In this document: in pieces, positions 6,099-54,102 of the stretch
Layout: every line of letters starts with the position of its first letter
How positions within the stretch are numbered: the first letter of the stretch is position 1
Assembly (NCBI GenBank): GCA_001805105.1
Contig: MHEE01000009.1
Span: 87,037 to 151,036 of the forward strand
Direction of reading: 5' to 3'
DNA length: 64,000 nucleotides
DNA from: Nitrospirae bacterium GWF2_44_13
GTDB lineage: Bacteria; Nitrospirota; Thermodesulfovibrionia; Thermodesulfovibrionales; UBA1546
Position numbers and translations under genes: made by a program
The notes under the pieces: model-generated
The model's input: the letters and a program-made list of their open reading frames with translations, nothing else
The model's database searches: none
Told to the model about the DNA's origin: nothing

Positions 6099-6815
6099 CT
6101 AACATTAGACACCATACGCGATATAGAACTTTATCAGAATAAGAAAGGCTACAGGTTTTCTGTAGATGCGCTCCTTCTTTACTCATTTGTAAACCTGCGC
6201 AGGGCATACAGGATTGCCGATCTTGGCGCGGGTTCAGGAATTATCGGTATTTTACTGGCAAAGCGCTATCCGGAAGCAGAGATTACATTGATTGAACTCC
6301 AAAAAAGCCTTGTAGAACTTGCAAAGAAAAATGTAGTTCTAAATAATCTCCAGGATAGGGTAACGGTTATTAGGAATGACATCAGGGATATAGATACCAT
6401 TCACCTATTCACCCATTCACCGCTTCACCGTTTTGATCTCGTTGTATCAAACCCTCCGTTCAGACGGCAGAAAACAGGACAGATAAGCCCTACAGATGAA
6501 AAGGCTATTGCAAGGCATGAAATAGAGCTAAAACTTGCAGATTTAATACAGGCAGCGTGCTCACTTCTGAGGTCAAAAGGCAGATTCTGCATTATTTATC
6601 ATCCGTCAAGGCTTGTGGAACTTATTGATGCCTTGAGGGAAAAACACATGGAACCGAAAAGACTGCGGTTCGTTCATTCAACGCTGACAACAGAGGCAAA
6701 GATGGCGCTCGTTGAGGCAATAAAAGACGGAAGAACAGAGATGAAAATTGAGAACCCCTTGTACATATATAAAGAAGACGGGACATACACAGATGAAATG
6801 AAGGCACTTTACTAA
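6072..6815 (+). CDS. TrmN6-like tRNA1(Val) adenine-N6 methyltransferase family protein
   Basis: Class I SAM-dependent N6-adenine methyltransferase, similar to TrmN6/YfiC, which modifies A37 of tRNA1(Val). Visible motifs are LDTIRDIELYQNKKGYRFSVDALLL (family N-terminus), the SAM site ADLGAGSGIIGILLAKR, the catalytic NPPF (VVSNPPFRR) and a C-terminal RLRFVHS...EAKMALVEA strand pair. Residues about 110-120 (IHLFTHSPLHRF) are encoded by an octamer repeat and look like an insertion between strand and NPPF motif. ATG 6072 overlaps the gph stop; ATG 6093 is an alternative start. Confidence 0.8.
   Translation: MNRVSCIMNLTLDTIRDIELYQNKKGYRFSVDALLLYSFVNLRRAYRIADLGAGSGIIGILLAKRYPEAEITLIELQKSLVELAKKNVVLNNLQDRVTVIRNDIRDIDTIHLFTHSPLHRFDLVVSNPPFRRQKTGQISPTDEKAIARHEIELKLADLIQAACSLLRSKGRFCIIYHPSRLVELIDALREKHMEPKRLRFVHSTLTTEAKMALVEAIKDGRTEMKIENPLYIYKEDGTYTDEMKALY
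6399..6430. repeat. four 8-bp ATTCACC[N] units inside the trmN6-like gene
   Basis: Four consecutive octamers (ATTCACCT, ATTCACCC, ATTCACCG, CTTCACCG). The same unit is present in four copies at 31347-31378 (hypF), 33953-33984 (hypE) and 48519-48551 (end of the MacA-like gene). Here it is translated in frame. Confidence 0.85.
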
Positions 6816-29647: not shown

Positions 29648-30295
29648 GTGAAAGTTGAAGTCGTGACAAGGATACTTGAGGCAAATGAGAGAATCGCAGC
29701 GGAAAACCGCAGGCTTTTTGACAAGGCAACGGTCTATGTCATTAACCTGATGAGTGGACCGGGAGCGGGCAAGACATCCCTGCTGGAAAGAACCATAAAA
29801 GAACTGAACGGAAAAATAAAAACCGCTGTTATAGAGGGAGACATCGCAGGCACATCTGACGCCGAAAGGATCGGCAGTCTCGGCGTGCCCGTTATACAGA
29901 TAAATACAGGCGGCGCATGTCATCTTGACGCTAATATGATTAACGAGGTTCTGGAATCTCTCCCTCTGAAGGAGACCGACCTGCTTTTTGTCGAAAACAT
30001 AGGAAATCTTGTATGCCCCGCGGAATTCAATATAGGCGAGGATATGAAGGCAATGGTTTTGAGCATAACTGAAGGCGATGACAAGCCGTTAAAATATCCC
30101 CTCATGTTTCAGGAATCATCAGCTTTGATATTGAACAAAATTGACCTTCTGCCATATACAAATGCAAGCGTGGAGAAAATCAGGAAAGACGCAATGTCCT
30201 TAAATCCTTCGCTGAAAATATTTGAGGTTTCATGCAAAACAGGCAAGGGAATCGCGGAATGGGCGGAATGGCTGACAGAGAAAGTTAAAAGTTAG
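29648..30295 (+). CDS. hypB: hydrogenase maturation GTPase HypB
   Basis: GTPase that powers nickel insertion. 215 residues from GTG 29648. P-loop SGPGAGKTSLL, Mg-binding EGDIAGTSDAER, the intersubunit metal site GGACHLDANM (Cys, His), and the guanine motif LILNKIDLLPY. It lacks the N-terminal Cys-rich or His-rich nickel-storage extension found in some HypB proteins. Its last codons fall in a heptamer repeat that continues into the hypF start. Confidence 0.96.
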   Translation: MKVEVVTRILEANERIAAENRRLFDKATVYVINLMSGPGAGKTSLLERTIKELNGKIKTAVIEGDIAGTSDAERIGSLGVPVIQINTGGACHLDANMINEVLESLPLKETDLLFVENIGNLVCPAEFNIGEDMKAMVLSITEGDDKPLKYPLMFQESSALILNKIDLLPYTNASVEKIRKDAMSLNPSLKIFEVSCKTGKGIAEWAEWLTEKVKS

Positions 30296-30311
30296 AAGTT
30301 AAAAGTTAATG
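30284..30311. repeat. four heptamer units (GTTAAAA type) at the hypB/hypF junction
   Basis: Four 7-base units (GTTAAAA, GTTAGAA, GTTAAAA, GTTAATG) span the TAG of hypB and the ATG of hypF. The stop and the start are both made of repeat sequence. Confidence 0.8.
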
Positions 30312-32750
30312 GATCGTGTCCTCATCAATATCAAAGGCATTGTGCAGGGAGTCGGCTTCAGGCCCTTTGTCTATAACCTCGCCAAATCTCTTAACCTGAA
30401 AGGCACAGTAACCAATACCACTGACGGGTTGACAATTGACATAGAGGGCGAAGACGTCACGTCATTTATAGACAGGCTTCCAAAAGAAGCCCCTCCATTA
30501 TCAGAGATAAACAAGATTGATATTTCGCCTATGCCTTTTTGCGGCTATGAGGATTTTAAGATAGTAAAAAGCAGAGACAACGGAAGTTTTACGCTTATAT
30601 CTTCTGACGTCTCTGTATGCGAGGACTGCCTTAAAGAGATGCTTGACAAGGACAACAGGCGTTATCTCTACCCTTTTATAAACTGCATCAACTGCGGGCC
30701 GCGGTATACCATCACAAATGCCGTTCCGTATGACAGGCACAACACCACCATGTCTGTTTTTAAAATGTGCAATGAATGCGAAAGCGAATACAACAACACT
30801 TCTGACAGGAGATTTCATGCCCAGCCTAATGCCTGCTCTAAATGCGGGCCGAACTTAGAGTTGAAAATTCATCCGCCGCGGCGGACAAAATTTAAAATTG
30901 ATGAAAAAGAAAATCCTATCAAAGCAACTATAAATATTTTAGAGCAAGGCGGTATCGTTGCAATAAAAGGGCTTGGCGGTTTTCACATCGCATGCGACGC
31001 CGCAAACAGAGATGCAGTTGAAAGATTAAGAGAAAGGAAAAGAAAGAGCAACAAGCCTTTTGCGCTTATGGCTCCTGACATAGAAACAATAAAAAAATAC
31101 TGCGAGGTTTCGGAGAAAGAGCAAGCACACCTGGCCTCCAATAAGAGGCCGGTTGTGCTCCTCAGGAAAAAGGATACAGGATTCAGGATACAGGATTCAG
31201 GATACAGGATTCAGGCTGAAGAAAATCATGCATCATGCATCATGCATCATGCATCAGTACTTCCTGATTCAATCAGCCCTAATAATCTGTACATCGGTTT
31301 CATGCTGCCGTACACGCCATTACATTATCTCTTGTTTTATTATCCTATTCACCGATTCACCGATTCACCGATTCACCATAACTTTGACGCGCTTGTAATG
31401 ACAAGTGGTAATATCTCAGAAGAGCCGATTGTTGTCAGCAATGATGAGGCAGCAGCAAAATTCTCCGATATGGTTGATGCGCTCCTGATCCATAACAGGG
31501 ACATCTTCATGCGTGTGGATGACTCAGTAGTACGAAATCATTTCATTGCTCATAGGACAAAACCTCTCTTTATCCGCCGTTCAAGGGGTTATGCGCCTGA
31601 ACCCATATCTCTGGACAATGACGGCCCCGAAGTGCTCGGCTGCGGAGCTGATATAAAAAACACATTTACCCTCACAAAAGGAAGCTATGCTATTCCAAGC
31701 CATCACATAGGAGATATGGAAAATTACGAGACTGTAAAATTTTTTGAAGAGAGCCTCAGCAATCTAAAAAAAGTTTACAGGGTGAACCCTGTTGCAATTG
31801 GATATGACCTGCATCCCAATTATCTTTCAACAAAATGGGCGCTGGCTCAACAGTCGGAATTAAACACAAACTCTACACTCTCGTTTTATGGAATCCAGCA
31901 TCATTATGCCCATATTGCATCTGTCATGGCGGAAAACGGAATAAAGAGAAAAGTCATAGGTGTGGCATTTGACGGCACAGGCTACGGAACGGACGGCAAT
32001 CTGTGGGGAAGTGAATTCCTGATTGCCGATACAGACGGCTTTAAAAGGGCAGGACACTTTAAATACATCCCCCTTCCGGGAGGAGAGACGGCAATCAAAG
32101 AGCCGTGGAGAGTTGCGGTCAGCTACATAAGATATATCACAGGTGATGAGGTCATGCACTATCTGGAGTCCATGGGCTTCATTAAAAAATACGGCAGTGA
32201 CAGGATAACCGCTGTTTTAGGAATCATTGACAACAGAGATTTCTCGCCTCTTTCATCAAGCGCGGGAAGGCTCTTTGATGCAGTCTCGGCAATACTCGGG
32301 ATATGCGGCACAAATACCTTTGAAGGCGAGGCAGCAATGGCGCTTGAATCTTATACAATAGACGGCATAGACGAAGACTACCCTGCTGACATCGGATTGA
32401 AAGACAGGATTGAAATAGACTTTTGCCTGACTCTGTTCAGGCTGATACAGGATATGGCGAAAGGCATCGGGAAAGATATTATCGCCACTAAGTTCCACAA
32501 CACCATAGTCACCATTATCGCCGGAGTCGTCCAGCGGCTCGGCATGATTCATAAGCTGCATGATGTGGTTTTAAGCGGCGGAGTTTTTCAAAATATGTAT
32601 CTTCTCAAAAATACTATAGACAGGCTGAAATCAATAGGAATGGATGTTTATACTAATGAAAAGGTGCCTGCAAATGATGCGGGCATATCGCTGGGGCAGG
32701 CATACATAGTGAGGGAAAGGATAAAACAGTCATCCCGGACTAAAGAATAA
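30309..32750 (+). CDS. hypF: carbamoyltransferase HypF with repeat-derived insertions
   Basis: HypF makes the thiocarbamate/cyanide precursor for the iron ligands of hydrogenase. 813 residues: acylphosphatase domain (1-90, VQGVGFRPFVYNLA), zinc-finger pairs (CEDC...CINCGPRY and CNEC...CSKCGP), a YrdC-like domain (about 200-390, GGFHIACDA, MLPYTPLHYLLF, LVMTSGNISEEP) and a Kae1-like domain (HHYAH, GVAFDGTGYG, LSGGVFQN). It is longer than usual because residues about 288-315 and 346-357 are encoded by tandem repeats inside the YrdC-like domain. No stop or frameshift results. A 14-bp palindrome at 30872-30885 lies in the segment before that domain. Confidence 0.95.
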   Translation: MDRVLINIKGIVQGVGFRPFVYNLAKSLNLKGTVTNTTDGLTIDIEGEDVTSFIDRLPKEAPPLSEINKIDISPMPFCGYEDFKIVKSRDNGSFTLISSDVSVCEDCLKEMLDKDNRRYLYPFINCINCGPRYTITNAVPYDRHNTTMSVFKMCNECESEYNNTSDRRFHAQPNACSKCGPNLELKIHPPRRTKFKIDEKENPIKATINILEQGGIVAIKGLGGFHIACDAANRDAVERLRERKRKSNKPFALMAPDIETIKKYCEVSEKEQAHLASNKRPVVLLRKKDTGFRIQDSGYRIQAEENHASCIMHHASVLPDSISPNNLYIGFMLPYTPLHYLLFYYPIHRFTDSPIHHNFDALVMTSGNISEEPIVVSNDEAAAKFSDMVDALLIHNRDIFMRVDDSVVRNHFIAHRTKPLFIRRSRGYAPEPISLDNDGPEVLGCGADIKNTFTLTKGSYAIPSHHIGDMENYETVKFFEESLSNLKKVYRVNPVAIGYDLHPNYLSTKWALAQQSELNTNSTLSFYGIQHHYAHIASVMAENGIKRKVIGVAFDGTGYGTDGNLWGSEFLIADTDGFKRAGHFKYIPLPGGETAIKEPWRVAVSYIRYITGDEVMHYLESMGFIKKYGSDRITAVLGIIDNRDFSPLSSSAGRLFDAVSAILGICGTNTFEGEAAMALESYTIDGIDEDYPADIGLKDRIEIDFCLTLFRLIQDMAKGIGKDIIATKFHNTIVTIIAGVVQRLGMIHKLHDVVLSGGVFQNMYLLKNTIDRLKSIGMDVYTNEKVPANDAGISLGQAYIVRERIKQSSRTKE
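31171..31252. repeat. heptamer repeats within hypF (AGGATWC x6, ATCATGC x4)
   Basis: Six 7-base units AGGATAC/AGGATTC (31171-31212) followed by a short spacer and four units ATCATGC (31225-31252). Translated in frame as a DTGFRIQDSGYRIQ-like stretch and HASCIMHHAS. Both unit types recur, degenerate, at 34855-34931. Confidence 0.9.
31347..31378. repeat. four 8-bp ATTCACCG units within hypF
   Basis: Four octamers, three identical (ATTCACCG) and one ATTCACCA, inserted between LLF and DALVMTSGN of HypF and read as PIHRFTDSPIHH. Confidence 0.92.
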
Positions 32751-32762
32751 AAGGAGTTATCA

Positions 32763-33836
32763 TTGAGCCTGGCAGTTGAAACATTAAAAAATCTTTTAAA
32801 GCAAATCGGAAAACCGGTAAAGCTGATGGAGGTTTGCGGCACCCATACCGTTGCAATATTCAGGCAGGGCGTAAGGGAACTGCTGCCTGAGGAGTTAAGC
32901 CTTATAAGCGGCCCCGGCTGCCCTGTGTGCGTCACCGCAGTTGAGGATATTGAGAAGGCAATGGAAATCGCAAGAAAAGAAAATGTTATATTTACGACTT
33001 TCGGCGACATGATGCGCGTGCCCGGCATCAAGAAAAATCTCTCTGAAGCCAAGGCAGAGGGCGCTGACATAAGGGTTCTATATTCTCCGATAGATGCGCT
33101 TAAGATTGCAGCGGAAAATAAAGACAAAAAGATTGTATTTTTTGCAACGGGTTTTGAGACAACATCTCCGTCTGTGGCTGCCACGCTGTTTGAGGCTGAT
33201 AAAAGAGGCATAAGCAACTTCTACATATATTCTGTTCACAAACTTGTTCCCCCTGCGCTGGACGCATTGCTGGGTTCAGGCGAAGTAAAAATTGACGGTT
33301 TTATACTTCCAGGGCATGTCAGCACTATTATAGGCAGCAAGCCGTACAACTTTATAACTGAGAAATATCATAAGCCGTCAGTGATAACAGGCTTTGAGGC
33401 AGGAGACATACTTCAGGGAATAAACATGCTTCTTGAACAGATTGCATCCAACAGGGCAGAGGTTGAAATACAATACAAGAAAGTTGTGAGGGAAGAAGGG
33501 AATCCCAAGGCAGTCGCGCTTATCAACGAATATTTTGAACCGTGTGACGCATACTGGAGAGGAATCGGAACCATACCATTGAGCGGTCTTAAACTCAGAG
33601 AAAAATACAAACACAGAGACATAAACTCAGTGGTTAAGATTGAAACCTCATTTATCTCAGGCCCTCAGGAACCAAAGGGATGCTCCTGCGGAGAAATTCT
33701 TAAAGGCATTAAAACACCTGACGAATGCCCGCTGTTTGCAGGCGTATGCACACCTGAGAACCCTATCGGAGCATGCATGGTAAGCACAGAAGGAAGCTGC
33801 GCCGCATATTACAAATACGGAGGATTCAGTGGATAA
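32763..33836 (+). CDS. hypD: hydrogenase formation protein HypD
   Basis: Iron-sulfur scaffold on which the Fe(CN)2CO unit is built together with HypC and HypE. 357 residues from TTG 32763 (AAGGAG upstream). All family Cys motifs are present: VCGTHT, GPGCPVCVT, the FATGFETTSPS loop and the C-terminal cluster ligands CSCGEI, CPLFAGVCTPENPIGACMVS...GSC. HypC, its obligate partner, is not encoded in the window. The stop overlaps the GTG of hypE. Confidence 0.97.
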   Translation: MSLAVETLKNLLKQIGKPVKLMEVCGTHTVAIFRQGVRELLPEELSLISGPGCPVCVTAVEDIEKAMEIARKENVIFTTFGDMMRVPGIKKNLSEAKAEGADIRVLYSPIDALKIAAENKDKKIVFFATGFETTSPSVAATLFEADKRGISNFYIYSVHKLVPPALDALLGSGEVKIDGFILPGHVSTIIGSKPYNFITEKYHKPSVITGFEAGDILQGINMLLEQIASNRAEVEIQYKKVVREEGNPKAVALINEYFEPCDAYWRGIGTIPLSGLKLREKYKHRDINSVVKIETSFISGPQEPKGCSCGEILKGIKTPDECPLFAGVCTPENPIGACMVSTEGSCAAYYKYGGFSG

Positions 33837-34851
33837 AATCCTTCTTGCGCACGGAAGTGGCGGAACTGCAATGCATAAACTGATAAGAGAGTATTTTGTC
33901 CCTGAGTTTGATATGAAAAGCCTCGGAGATTCGGCGATTGTTGATCTACCCGATTCACCCATTCACCCATTCACCCATTTACCGTTAAAACTTGCCTTTA
34001 CAACCGACTCTTATGTTGTCTCTCCTGTTTTTTTCCCGGGAGGAAATATCGGAGAGCTTGCGGTTTACGGCACGGTTAATGACCTCTCGATGGTCGGCGC
34101 AAAACCTCTTTGCATGAGCACAGGATTAATACTTGAAGAGGGATTTTTAATGAAGGACCTGAAAAAGATTTTAGCGTCAATGGCTGACGCCGCTAAAAGA
34201 TCAGGGGTAAAGATTATTGCAGGCGACACAAAGGTTGTCAACAGGGGAAAGGGAGACGGAATATTCATAAATACATCCGGCATCGGAATTCTTGAGGATG
34301 GAGTAAATATTTCACCCTCAAATATAAAATCAGGGGATAAAATCATCGTGAGCGGAACAATCGGCAACCACGGAGTTGCTGTCATGGCTGAAAGAAACGG
34401 GCTGAGCTTCAATCCTCCTGTCCTGAGCGACACAGCGCCGCTGAATCAGATGGTGGAGGAGATTATCGGATACGGCGGCGTGCACGCAATGAGAGACCCT
34501 ACACGAGGAGGACTGGCTACGACACTCAAGGAAATGGCTCTGGAATCAGGCCTATGTTTTTCCATACGAGAAGCGTCAATCCCTGTTCCGGACGGGGTGA
34601 GAGGCGCTTCTGAACTTTTAGGCATTGACCCTCTTTACATTGCAAACGAGGGCATTTTAATAGCTGTTGTCAGGAAAGATGCAGCTGAAAGCCTGCTTGC
34701 GATACTGAGGAAAAACCGTCTGGGAAAAGACGCTAATATTATCGGCGAAGTCTCTGAAGCACCCGAAGGAAAAGTCCTGCTTAAAACAAGAATCGGCGGA
34801 ACACGCGTAATAGATATGCTTTCAGGCGAACAGCTTCCGAGGATATGCTGA
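33829..34851 (+). CDS. hypE: hydrogenase maturation protein HypE with small repeat insertion
   Basis: PurM-like protein whose C-terminal Cys is carbamoylated by HypF and dehydrated to thiocyanate. 340 residues; begins LLAHGSGGTAMHKLI, contains FPGGNIGELAVYGTVNDLSMVGAKP, HGVAVM and MRDPTRGGLATTL, and ends in the required PRIC. Residues about 42-52 (PDSPIHPFTHLP) come from an octamer repeat placed between two N-terminal strands. GTG start overlaps hypD by 8 bases. Confidence 0.96.
   Translation: MDKILLAHGSGGTAMHKLIREYFVPEFDMKSLGDSAIVDLPDSPIHPFTHLPLKLAFTTDSYVVSPVFFPGGNIGELAVYGTVNDLSMVGAKPLCMSTGLILEEGFLMKDLKKILASMADAAKRSGVKIIAGDTKVVNRGKGDGIFINTSGIGILEDGVNISPSNIKSGDKIIVSGTIGNHGVAVMAERNGLSFNPPVLSDTAPLNQMVEEIIGYGGVHAMRDPTRGGLATTLKEMALESGLCFSIREASIPVPDGVRGASELLGIDPLYIANEGILIAVVRKDAAESLLAILRKNRLGKDANIIGEVSEAPEGKVLLKTRIGGTRVIDMLSGEQLPRIC
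33953..33984. repeat. four 8-bp ATTCACCC units within hypE
   Basis: Three identical ATTCACCC units and one ATTTACCG, read in frame in HypE. Copy number and unit length match the insertions in hypF and the trmN6-like gene. Confidence 0.92.
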
Positions 34852-34854
34852 AAC

Positions 34855-34955
34855 AGGATGCAAGGATACATGATGCAGGATGCAGGACTCAGAATAATGT
34901 TGTTTGTATCGTGTATCATGTATCATGCATCGGAAGCATGGTTATTGGGTGAAAG
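34855..34955. repeat. mixed heptamer/octamer repeat block between hypE and the patatin gene
   Basis: Five degenerate AGGATRC heptamers (34855-34890), four ATGTATC-type heptamers (34904-34931), then GGGTGAAAGGTGAATAG, the reverse complement of the ATTCACC octamer type, running into the next gene. The GTG start of the patatin gene lies in this last part. Confidence 0.8.
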
Positions 34956-48518: not shown

Positions 48519-48551
48519 ATTCACCGATTTACCCCCTTCACCTATTCACCG
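48519..48551. repeat. octamer ATTCACC-type repeat at the end of the MacA-like gene
   Basis: Four degenerate units (ATTCACCG, ATTTACCC, CCTTCACCT, ATTCACCG). On the minus strand they encode the last residues (VNR) and the stop of the adaptor protein. Confidence 0.75.
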
Positions 48552-51792: not shown

Positions 51793-54102
51793 TTATATCT
51801 TCACCCTCTTCAACAGGGCAGAGTTGCTCACTACCGACAATGAGCTTAATGCCATTGCTGCCGCGGCAATTATAGGATTCAAAAGCCCAAAGGCAGCAAT
51901 CGGGATACCTACAGTGTTGTAAATAAACGCCCAGAAAAGGTTCTGTTTTATCTTCCGCATTGTCTTCCTGCTGAGTTTTATGCTCTTGATTACGTCTCTC
52001 AGGTCGTCCCTTACCAGTATGATGCCGCCTGTCTCTTTTGCCACATCAGAGCCGCTGCCTATTGCTATGCCGATATCTGCCTGGGCAAGTGCAGGGGAAT
52101 CATTGATTCCGTCTCCCACCATTGCCACAACTTTTCCTTCAGCCTGAAGTTCTTTAATGACTTTAGACTTTTCACCGGGCAGGACATTTGCAACAATTCT
52201 TTCAATTCCGACTTTAGAGCCGATGGCCCTTGCGGTTTTTTCATTGTCTCCTGTCAGCATTACAACCTGAATACCTTCATCTTTAAGACCCTTCACTACA
52301 TCTTCTGCGTTTTCCTTTAAAGTATCTGCAACTGCAATCAATCCGATAAATTTCTTATCTGCTGCAACCAGCATTACTGTGTTGCCCTTTTCTTCAAGAC
52401 CTGATATTACAGACTCTTTATCCTGAATATCAATACCCATTTCTTTCATAAGCCTTCTGTTGCCTATCAGGATTTCTCTCTCCTGAGATTTTACTTTAAC
52501 GCCGTGCCCTGGAACGGCCTCAAATGCCTCTGCATGGGGTATTGCAAGTCCGGCCATATTCGCCCTTTTTAAAATTGCCTCAGCCAGAGGATGTTCAGAA
52601 CCTTTTTCCGCAATTGCTGCAAGTTGTATTATTTCACTTTCACTGACACTATTCACTGACACTATTTCTGTCACCTCAGGCTCACCTTTCGTGAGAGTAC
52701 CGGTCTTGTCAAACACCACCACATTTAGTTTTTCAGCCCTTTCGAGATATTCAGCGCCCCGTATAAGTATCCCAAGTTCGGCTCCCTTACCCACTCCGAC
52801 CATTAATGCCGCCGGCGTCGCTATGCCGAGGGCACAGGGACAGGCGATTATTAAAACCGCTACAAACGACAAAAGCGCCAAGGTGGTATTTCCAATAAGG
52901 ACCCATATAATAGCTGACAGAAACGCAACGCCGATAACAGCCGGGACAAAAAAGGATGCAACCTTGTCAGCGAGCCTCTGAATCTGCGATGATGATGCCT
53001 GTGCCTCCTCCACCAATTTAATTATCTGGCTCAATGTAGTATCAGCGCCAATTCTTGTTGCCCTGAATTTAAAAGAGCCGACTTTGTTTATCGTGCCGCC
53101 TATCACATCATCGCCTGTCTTTTTTTCGACAGGGACGCTTTCACCGGTCAGCATCTTTTCATCTACAGATGAGTGCCCTTCCGTGACAATTCCGTCGGTT
53201 GGAATTTTTTCCCCCGGCCTGACAACGACAATTTCATTTACCATAACCGATTCGGCGGGAATTTCAACCTCCACGCTATCTCTGACGACCCTCGCTGTCT
53301 GTGGTTTAAGGTCGAGGAGTTTTCTGATCGCTGCGGAACTTTTTTTCTTGATAATCTCTTCCATGTATTTCCCGAGGAGGACAAAGGCGATAATAATAGC
53401 AGACACGTCGAAATATACATTCTTTTCTTCAACAGGCAGAACACCGGGGAAAAAGACCACAAATGCGCTGTAAAGATATGCAGTTGATGTGCCGAGCGCT
53501 ATGAGAAGGTCCATATTCGCCACACGGTCTTTGATGGCATGATATGCGCCTATGAAAAAACCTTTTCCGCCGAATATCATAATGGGAGTTGTGATGATAA
53601 AGAGCCAGACACCTGCATTGAACCATGGTAGAAACGAAAAAGGAACCCAGGTGAGAACGGTTGCCCCTGCTGCAAGACCGAGAAATAAGGCCGCCCTGAA
53701 GATCGCCAGAAAAAGGACTCCCGTAAGGGCAATAGTCACCCGTCTCTTCATAGACTTAAGCTCTGCTTCAGGAGACTCGAATGTTCTTACACAGTCTTCG
53801 CTGCAAAAATAGTATGCCCTGCCTCTGGCTTCCCTCTTTATGGAGCGTTCCTTCGGGATTACCATACCGCATATCGGGTCCTTTGCCATCTCTGAGATTA
53901 CCTTTGAAGTGGCAGAAACCAATTCCTCCATCTTAGGCATCATCATAATGGTCTTCTTACCGAGGAAAGATTCAGGGTCTTTATCGAATTTTTCCTTGCA
54001 GTGTTTCGCGCAGAAATAATATTTCTTTCCTTTATATTCCGATACACCGGCAGCCCTTGCATCCTCAATTGTCATATTGCATACAGGATCCGTAACCTTC
54101 AT
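51793..54102 (-). CDS. copA: YHS-domain copper/heavy-metal P1B-type ATPase
   Basis: 769 residues. In place of heavy-metal-associated domains the N-terminus has two YHS-type (TRASH-like) zinc/copper modules: [11 protein letters not shown]...[17 protein letters not shown] (5-50) and [11 protein letters not shown]...[15 protein letters not shown] (75-115). Then come eight membrane helices, the A-domain TGES, the metal motif [13 protein letters not shown], the phosphorylation site DKTGTLTKG, the SEHPLAEAI motif and [21 protein letters not shown] predicts Cu(I) or Ag(I) export. The 13-bp tandem duplication at 52641-52666 encodes IVSVNSVS in frame. A Met-rich secreted protein is encoded upstream in the same region. 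Confidence 0.94.

Follow-up and report, generated by a model that had tools for sequence, protein, structure and literature searches.

The short tandem repeats inside the hypF gene of the analyzed window (64,000 nucleotides of a Nitrospirota contig) are, with an estimated probability of about 0.7, two representatives of a population of cassettes that are spread through the genome, built of 7- or 8-base units, and turned over at tolerant protein loops. The genome searched, denoted G000 below, is a Thermodesulfovibrionales (Nitrospirota) MAG of 1,986,041 bases in 18 contigs, and its host is an uncultured, groundwater-type bacterium. The HypF relatives come from uncultured Nitrospirota, mostly Thermodesulfovibrionales MAGs.

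The hypF cassettes and their genome-wide families

The hypF gene (30309-32750, plus strand) is a single frame of 813 codons, open throughout, with hypB on one side and hypD and hypE on the other; phmmer relates its product to the HypF structures 3vth and 4g9i. Two cassettes were found in it, both on the plus strand. The left array of cassette 1, at HypF loop site 1, consists of six AGGATWC heptamers (31171-31215; called by TRF as 3.2 copies of AGGATACAGGATTC) and is followed by a 9-nt spacer (31216-31224) and by a right array of 4.6 ATCATGC units according to TRF (31225-31256). On the other strand ATCATGC is a rotation of ATGATGC and belongs to the same AKGATNC family as AGGATWC. Since the two families are thus reverse complements, these arrays form the left and right arms of a single inverted pair. 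Cassette 2, at loop site 2, contains 3.9 TRF units of ATTCACCG (31347-31377), that is, three full octamers and a 7-nt partial one. The numbers of matches to the hypF arrays in the window, 4-9, exceed the 0.01-0.04 expected from dinucleotide shuffles. The folding of the inverted pair in hypF is not clearly better than that of shuffled sequences (z -1.4), whereas another copy reaches z -5.0, so that hairpin formation is not common to all cassettes. No Rfam family matched the hyp region. A further heptamer array, of four RAAGTTA units, is situated at the hypB-hypF junction (30281-30309) and ends at the hypF start codon.

The first-pass annotation had described three tandem micro-repeats, placed in frame within the YrdC-like domain, between its conserved blocks. 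All three exist, are in frame in the open reading frame and lie where it placed them; the counts of six AGGATWC units and the ATCATGC array were reproduced. They are not three independent repeats, as two of them form one inverted-pair cassette, and the octamer array is real but falls short of the four full units reported. The gain of about 40 residues was overestimated, being roughly 30-35 relative to HypF of other phyla. At site 1 the net gain over congeners without a cassette there is about 21 residues; site 2 adds almost nothing, because the congeners hold other repeats at it.

In the AlphaFold model of HypF, built from 74 sequences (a run with 10 sequences, giving pLDDT 49, was replaced by it), the mean pLDDT is 92.6, and values fall below 50 in a single segment, residues 294-314, which corresponds to cassette 1. 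The sequence alignment to the solved HypF is broken at both cassettes. With the low pLDDT confined to these residues and the model fitting 3vth in Foldseek (TM-score 0.88/0.95), the prediction is that cassette 1 forms a floppy loop and that the enzyme carrying it is intact. The modelling of disorder concerned HypF; in other enzymes, intragenic cassettes apparently also sit in floppy loops.

A search of the complete genome for the same words, as suggested with the original description, revealed a dispersed system, so that the view of hypF as a site of local repeats is incomplete. The AKGATNC tandem pair (AKGATNCAKGATNC) has 127 matches in the genome and the ATTCACC tandem pair (ATTCACCGATTCACC, at most one mismatch) has 63, with no matches for either reversed-pattern control. 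Both pairs occur across the genus and family and are sparser in the remaining order. A third word, AACTCNN, is common in genomes of the genus and family of G000 and also in G025, G037, G041, and G046, with some matches to its reversed control as well; several words (AKGATNC, ATTCACC, and AACTCNN) occur together in a genome. The cassettes are about 30-110 bp long, vary in word and unit number, and are often inverted pairs of arrays flanking an A-rich spacer. The typical coding cassette is (ARGATNC)n AGGATAAAAAAAATC (RTGCATC)n, encoding a peptide like RIQDAGYKIQDKKNHASCIMHHAS. Within the window, an intergenic inverted pair of heptamer arrays lies directly past the hypE stop codon (34855-34930, plus strand).

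Several observations stand beside these families. An ATTCACC-type array was found near ABC-transporter-like genes (48519-48550), and three tandem AGGATNC units occur in 38 IMG/VR stretches (L262-L299). A tblastn search of plasmids with the cassette peptide gave no match. The idea that the word in a hypF loop is the commonest one of its genome was not supported: where hypF contains CAATCCC or CTCACTT, that word is rare across the genome, unlike AACTCNN, which is common genome-wide.

Cassettes within genes

In the stretches fetched around the matches, 89 distinct elements were read. ORFs were called mechanically, and a few may be spurious; on this basis 39 elements lie within ORFs (at least 60 nt from each side), 27 at ORF edges, and 23 between genes. 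The genome is about 88% coding, and an intragenic share of 39/89 (p about 2e-23) therefore means a strong depletion of elements in genes. At least 27 host proteins were recognized by Pfam or NCBIfam. Multiple cassettes are present in CarB (two), a MiaB-like radical SAM enzyme (three), MurD (two), QueA (two), and RecJ (two). The other hosts include Alr, CobB/CbiA, KdsB, QueC, LpxK, WaaA, RsmE, MnmA, CbiG, HypE, HypF, a ThiL-like AIRS protein, an amidohydrolase/dihydroorotase, ferrochelatase, CoaE-RibF, cardiolipin synthase, a PhoR-like kinase, TatD-radical SAM, uracil-DNA glycosylase, a GH3 enzyme, PAP2-mannosyltransferase, and a BPL_N protein.

The intragenic elements are biased in orientation. 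The stop-poor orientation is used by 28 of 32 heptamer elements (p 2e-5), and by all seven ATTCACC arrays; the reverse orientation of the coding cassette tends to contain TGA. Cassettes with a GGATAA core are all read in one frame (10/10; CAG GAT AAA, Q-D-K). One other frame is stop-free as well, so this single reading frame exceeds what stop avoidance alone would give.

The window itself contains further in-frame cases. In hypE (33829-34851, plus strand; AIRS/AIRS_C domains), the second gene of the hyp cluster with such an array, 3.4 units of ATTCACCC (33953-33979, plus strand) encode PDSPIHPFTHLPL. An ATTCACC array is located in a methyltransferase gene immediately before the NPPF motif (6399-6428, plus strand), and the gene of a P-type metal ATPase contains, between the stretches encoding KTGTLTKG and SEHPL, a heptamer-type array (52635-52666, minus strand). 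A word related to the latter (GTGTCAGTGAATA) was observed in the MiaB-like gene of G005.

Turnover of cassettes between species

The compared genomes are MAGs, that is, consensus assemblies, and the variation described here is that between assemblies. Within the genus, no cassette is present at hypF site 1 in G003, G004, G006, and G007. The empty allele, for instance KKTAQDNSALLPDS in G004, shows no obvious target duplication; clean empty sites are rare at carB, where nearly all relatives are occupied. G001 has a short version, and G005 has the cassette of G000 with exactly three AGGATWC units (21 nt) fewer, which agrees with the earlier expectation that copy number changes between relatives. 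In G002, the heptamer cassette at this site, like that of the MiaB-like gene, encloses a different palindromic repeat.

At hypF site 2 the word itself changes: it is ATTCACCG in G000, CAATCCC in G001 and G002, AACTCCT in G004, G006, and G007, AAACTCA in G008, GCTGACA in G015, CTCACTT in G046, and others elsewhere, and larger palindromic repeats are found in G005, G011, and G013. The CAATCCC arrays appear to resemble the cyanobacterial STRR word, CCCCART; the STRR heptamers, which belong to a different phylum, are not known to act as exchanged loop cassettes. The same species-to-species change of words in heptamer arrays is seen at sites 3 and 4, situated after the DDSV motif and before QHHYAH, so HypF has four variable loops with different words in different species. 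The lag-7 signal is concentrated in sequence windows overlapping these four loops, and windows elsewhere give 0-2 matches; the first control window nearly matched the loop's count, the offset windows with matches cover sites 3 and 4, and this interpretation was made after seeing the result, on related sequences whose counts are not independent tests. The hypE array of ATTCACCC is also present in G002 and is shorter in G001 and G007, and other repeats occupy this position in G013 and G003. Outside the phylum, repeat-like peptides were noticed at HypF site 2 in L170 (Anaerolineae; NPLSLNPLSLNPL) and L159 (Ratteibacteria; RNPKSEI), so that the site-2 loop may receive insertions far outside Nitrospirota as well.

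The first-pass annotation had named two circumstances that would speak against its reading, the same peptides in distant HypF proteins and an assembly error. The inserts of the relatives at the same sites mostly differ in peptide, and since independent MAGs show inserts of the same kind at identical sites, the hypF inserts are not an assembly error.

The CarB and MiaB-like loops were compared in 16 genomes of the family, using flanks free of neighboring cassettes. A repeat-derived peptide is present in many or most species at each cassette site, with differing words. Of the 47 species-site pairs whose flanks reach 92% identity or more, 27 have cassettes less than 62% identical, this cut-off being about the 95th percentile of identity between unrelated cassettes.

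Other pairs show the opposite relation of cassettes to flanks. At carB site A, the flanks of G013 are 92-94% identical to those of G011 and G015, and the tree groups these three genomes with support 1.0. The G013 cassette, however, is that of G005, G002, and G004 (90-91% identity over 102 nt, with flanks of 76-79%), and the type switch falls at the cassette edge on both sides. This composite was found at no other locus of its four genomes, and because of its single locus in all four, simple reinsertion from a pool of scattered copies does not account for it. Similarly, at carB site B the cassettes of G010, G013, and G014 are 90-96% identical with flanks of 79-85%, and at MiaB-like site 2 the cassette of G000 is 85-88% identical to those of G013 and G011 with flanks of 74-75%. 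The simplest reading of these sequences is that short-tract recombination between alleles may explain the shared cassettes; a chimeric assembly of G013, in one contig, is an unlikely cause of the pattern at carB site A.

We tentatively propose, with less confidence than for the cassette population itself, that cassettes are exchanged, both inside a genus and across genera, at fixed loops of housekeeping proteins, the junctions falling at the cassette edges, and that sequence change in these loops of essential enzymes is far more rapid than in the remainder of the proteins. The initial suggestion that the repeats are an active source of new protein segments is largely supported, except that expansion alone does not describe it. 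Cassettes also turn over at fixed loop sites: the main change between species is that an entire cassette gives way to another built of a different word, and cassettes are in addition shared across genera.

Origin of the cassettes and comparison with known systems

The observations can be combined in the following scheme. Cassettes would arrive or expand almost anywhere, in intergenic or intragenic positions, and selection would remove them from most coding positions. Within genes, they would survive only if the frame is kept, stops are absent, and the loop is a tolerant one at the surface. Because the surviving cassettes are in frame, stop-free, and in tolerant loops, the host enzyme would gain a disordered repeat peptide and still work; the peptide is likely translated and probably is a near-neutral passenger. 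Occupied loops could afterwards offer later cassettes a safe place to land and to be exchanged. Slippage would add or remove units, a step of three heptamers preserving the frame since it equals 21 nt, new repeats could land in old cassettes, as the nested repeat of G002 may have done, and whole cassettes would be swapped within and between species, leaving the flanks unchanged. The words would thus turn over and the flanks would not, because the array is at once a weak point for slippage, a target, and an exchange site. We suggest that this turnover is driven by recombination or slippage of arrays rather than by a dedicated transposase.

Local replication slippage alone, with each array grown in place from a chance seed in a tolerant loop, could produce the difference of exactly three heptamers between G000 and G005 at hypF site 1, and among long simple repeats, those of 7-base units rank first in many bacteria (Mrazek et al. 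2007, as described in PMC4679880). It cannot make identical words recur at dozens of unlinked loci, mostly as inverted pairs, or near-identical carB composites common to distant genera, and it is very unlikely to be the whole explanation. Dispersed copies with inverted arms, inserted in frame with a recurrent peptide as are the palindromic elements of Rickettsia (PMC10969869), would also be expected of a miniature transposon or a REP/RPE-like element moved into genes by a transposase. However, no mobilizing or recombining enzyme was identified; the Y1 (RAYT) transposase family PF01797 is absent from G000, with 5 of 14 control genomes positive. Moreover, neither fixed ends nor a target duplication were seen, the word, unit number, and length are all variable, and the carB composite is single-copy in its genomes. 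We consider this origin unlikely.

The cassettes could instead be selected sites of a DNA- or RNA-binding regulator, the intragenic copies being part of its network; such a role was proposed for heptamer arrays in Geobacter metallireducens (PMC2700814) and Beggiatoaceae (PMC4679880). A fixed binding site is incompatible with words that differ between species having flanks 92-99% identical and with functionally unrelated host proteins, which makes this role rather improbable. Finally, the inserts might escape translation through ribosome bypass or be removed from the RNA or protein, and some copies do form imperfect hairpins. Frame and orientation would be irrelevant to skipped inserts, whereas the intragenic copies preserve the frame and favor the stop-poor orientation; we regard this as extremely improbable. 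The reading as a population of cassettes turned over at tolerant loops is the one we retain.

Repeat DNA is thus present in dozens of essential proteins of environmental bacteria far from Rickettsia, and at a given loop it is replaced from one species to the next. Selfish or simple-repeat DNA as a routine source of protein segments, proposed for Rickettsia, becomes testable here with many orthologous loops in close species of one clade. Caution is needed when proteins of these genomes are aligned or modelled, as they include repeat peptides that are non-homologous between species. Heptamer arrays and in-frame palindromes are already known; loop-specific cassette turnover appears to be new. No report of same-loop cassette replacement with exchange between species was found in the open-access literature searched, outside which most subscription papers fall, so that this absence is not proof of novelty.

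The likeness to heptamer repeats of cyanobacteria and in-frame palindromes of Rickettsia, noted at the outset, holds. Rickettsia palindromic elements consist of inverted repeats scattered over the genome and placed in frame within unrelated housekeeping genes, where they yield a recurrent peptide (PMC10969869), and in G000, likewise, 39/89 elements lie within ORFs, in at least 27 recognizable proteins. The Rickettsia element is a defined conserved palindrome of about 100-150 bp, whereas the cassettes of G000 are shorter (about 30-110 bp), their arms are tandem 7-8-mers of many words, and one loop holds different cassettes in sister species. REP elements are dispersed palindromic repeats, some of them intragenic (PMC3733652); unlike the REP/RAYT systems, G000 lacks the Y1 transposase, and neither a fixed tagged palindrome nor a GTAG or CGTC tetranucleotide at the foot of a hairpin was noticed among the cassettes that were read.

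Tandem heptanucleotide units at many loci are shared by G000 with the TAACTGA, STRR, and Geobacter types of repeats. In G. metallireducens, four or five heptamers stand in tandem, some classes are paired on opposite strands, and one family of 49 copies is both intergenic and intragenic, sometimes with several copies per gene; these heptamers were interpreted as regulator sites or RNA elements. The available part of that account (PMC2700814) describes neither in-frame loop cassettes nor turnover between species, unlike what is found in the clade of G000. The TAACTGA arrays of Beggiatoaceae, cyanobacteria, and Bacteroidetes occupy more than 100 loci, mostly upstream of start codons, and the few in ORFs are in the stop-free orientation, mostly at protein ends (PMC4679880). 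Thus TAACTGA is one word in mainly intergenic positions, whereas G000 has many words, 39/89 elements intragenic, and cassettes in central loops of enzymes.
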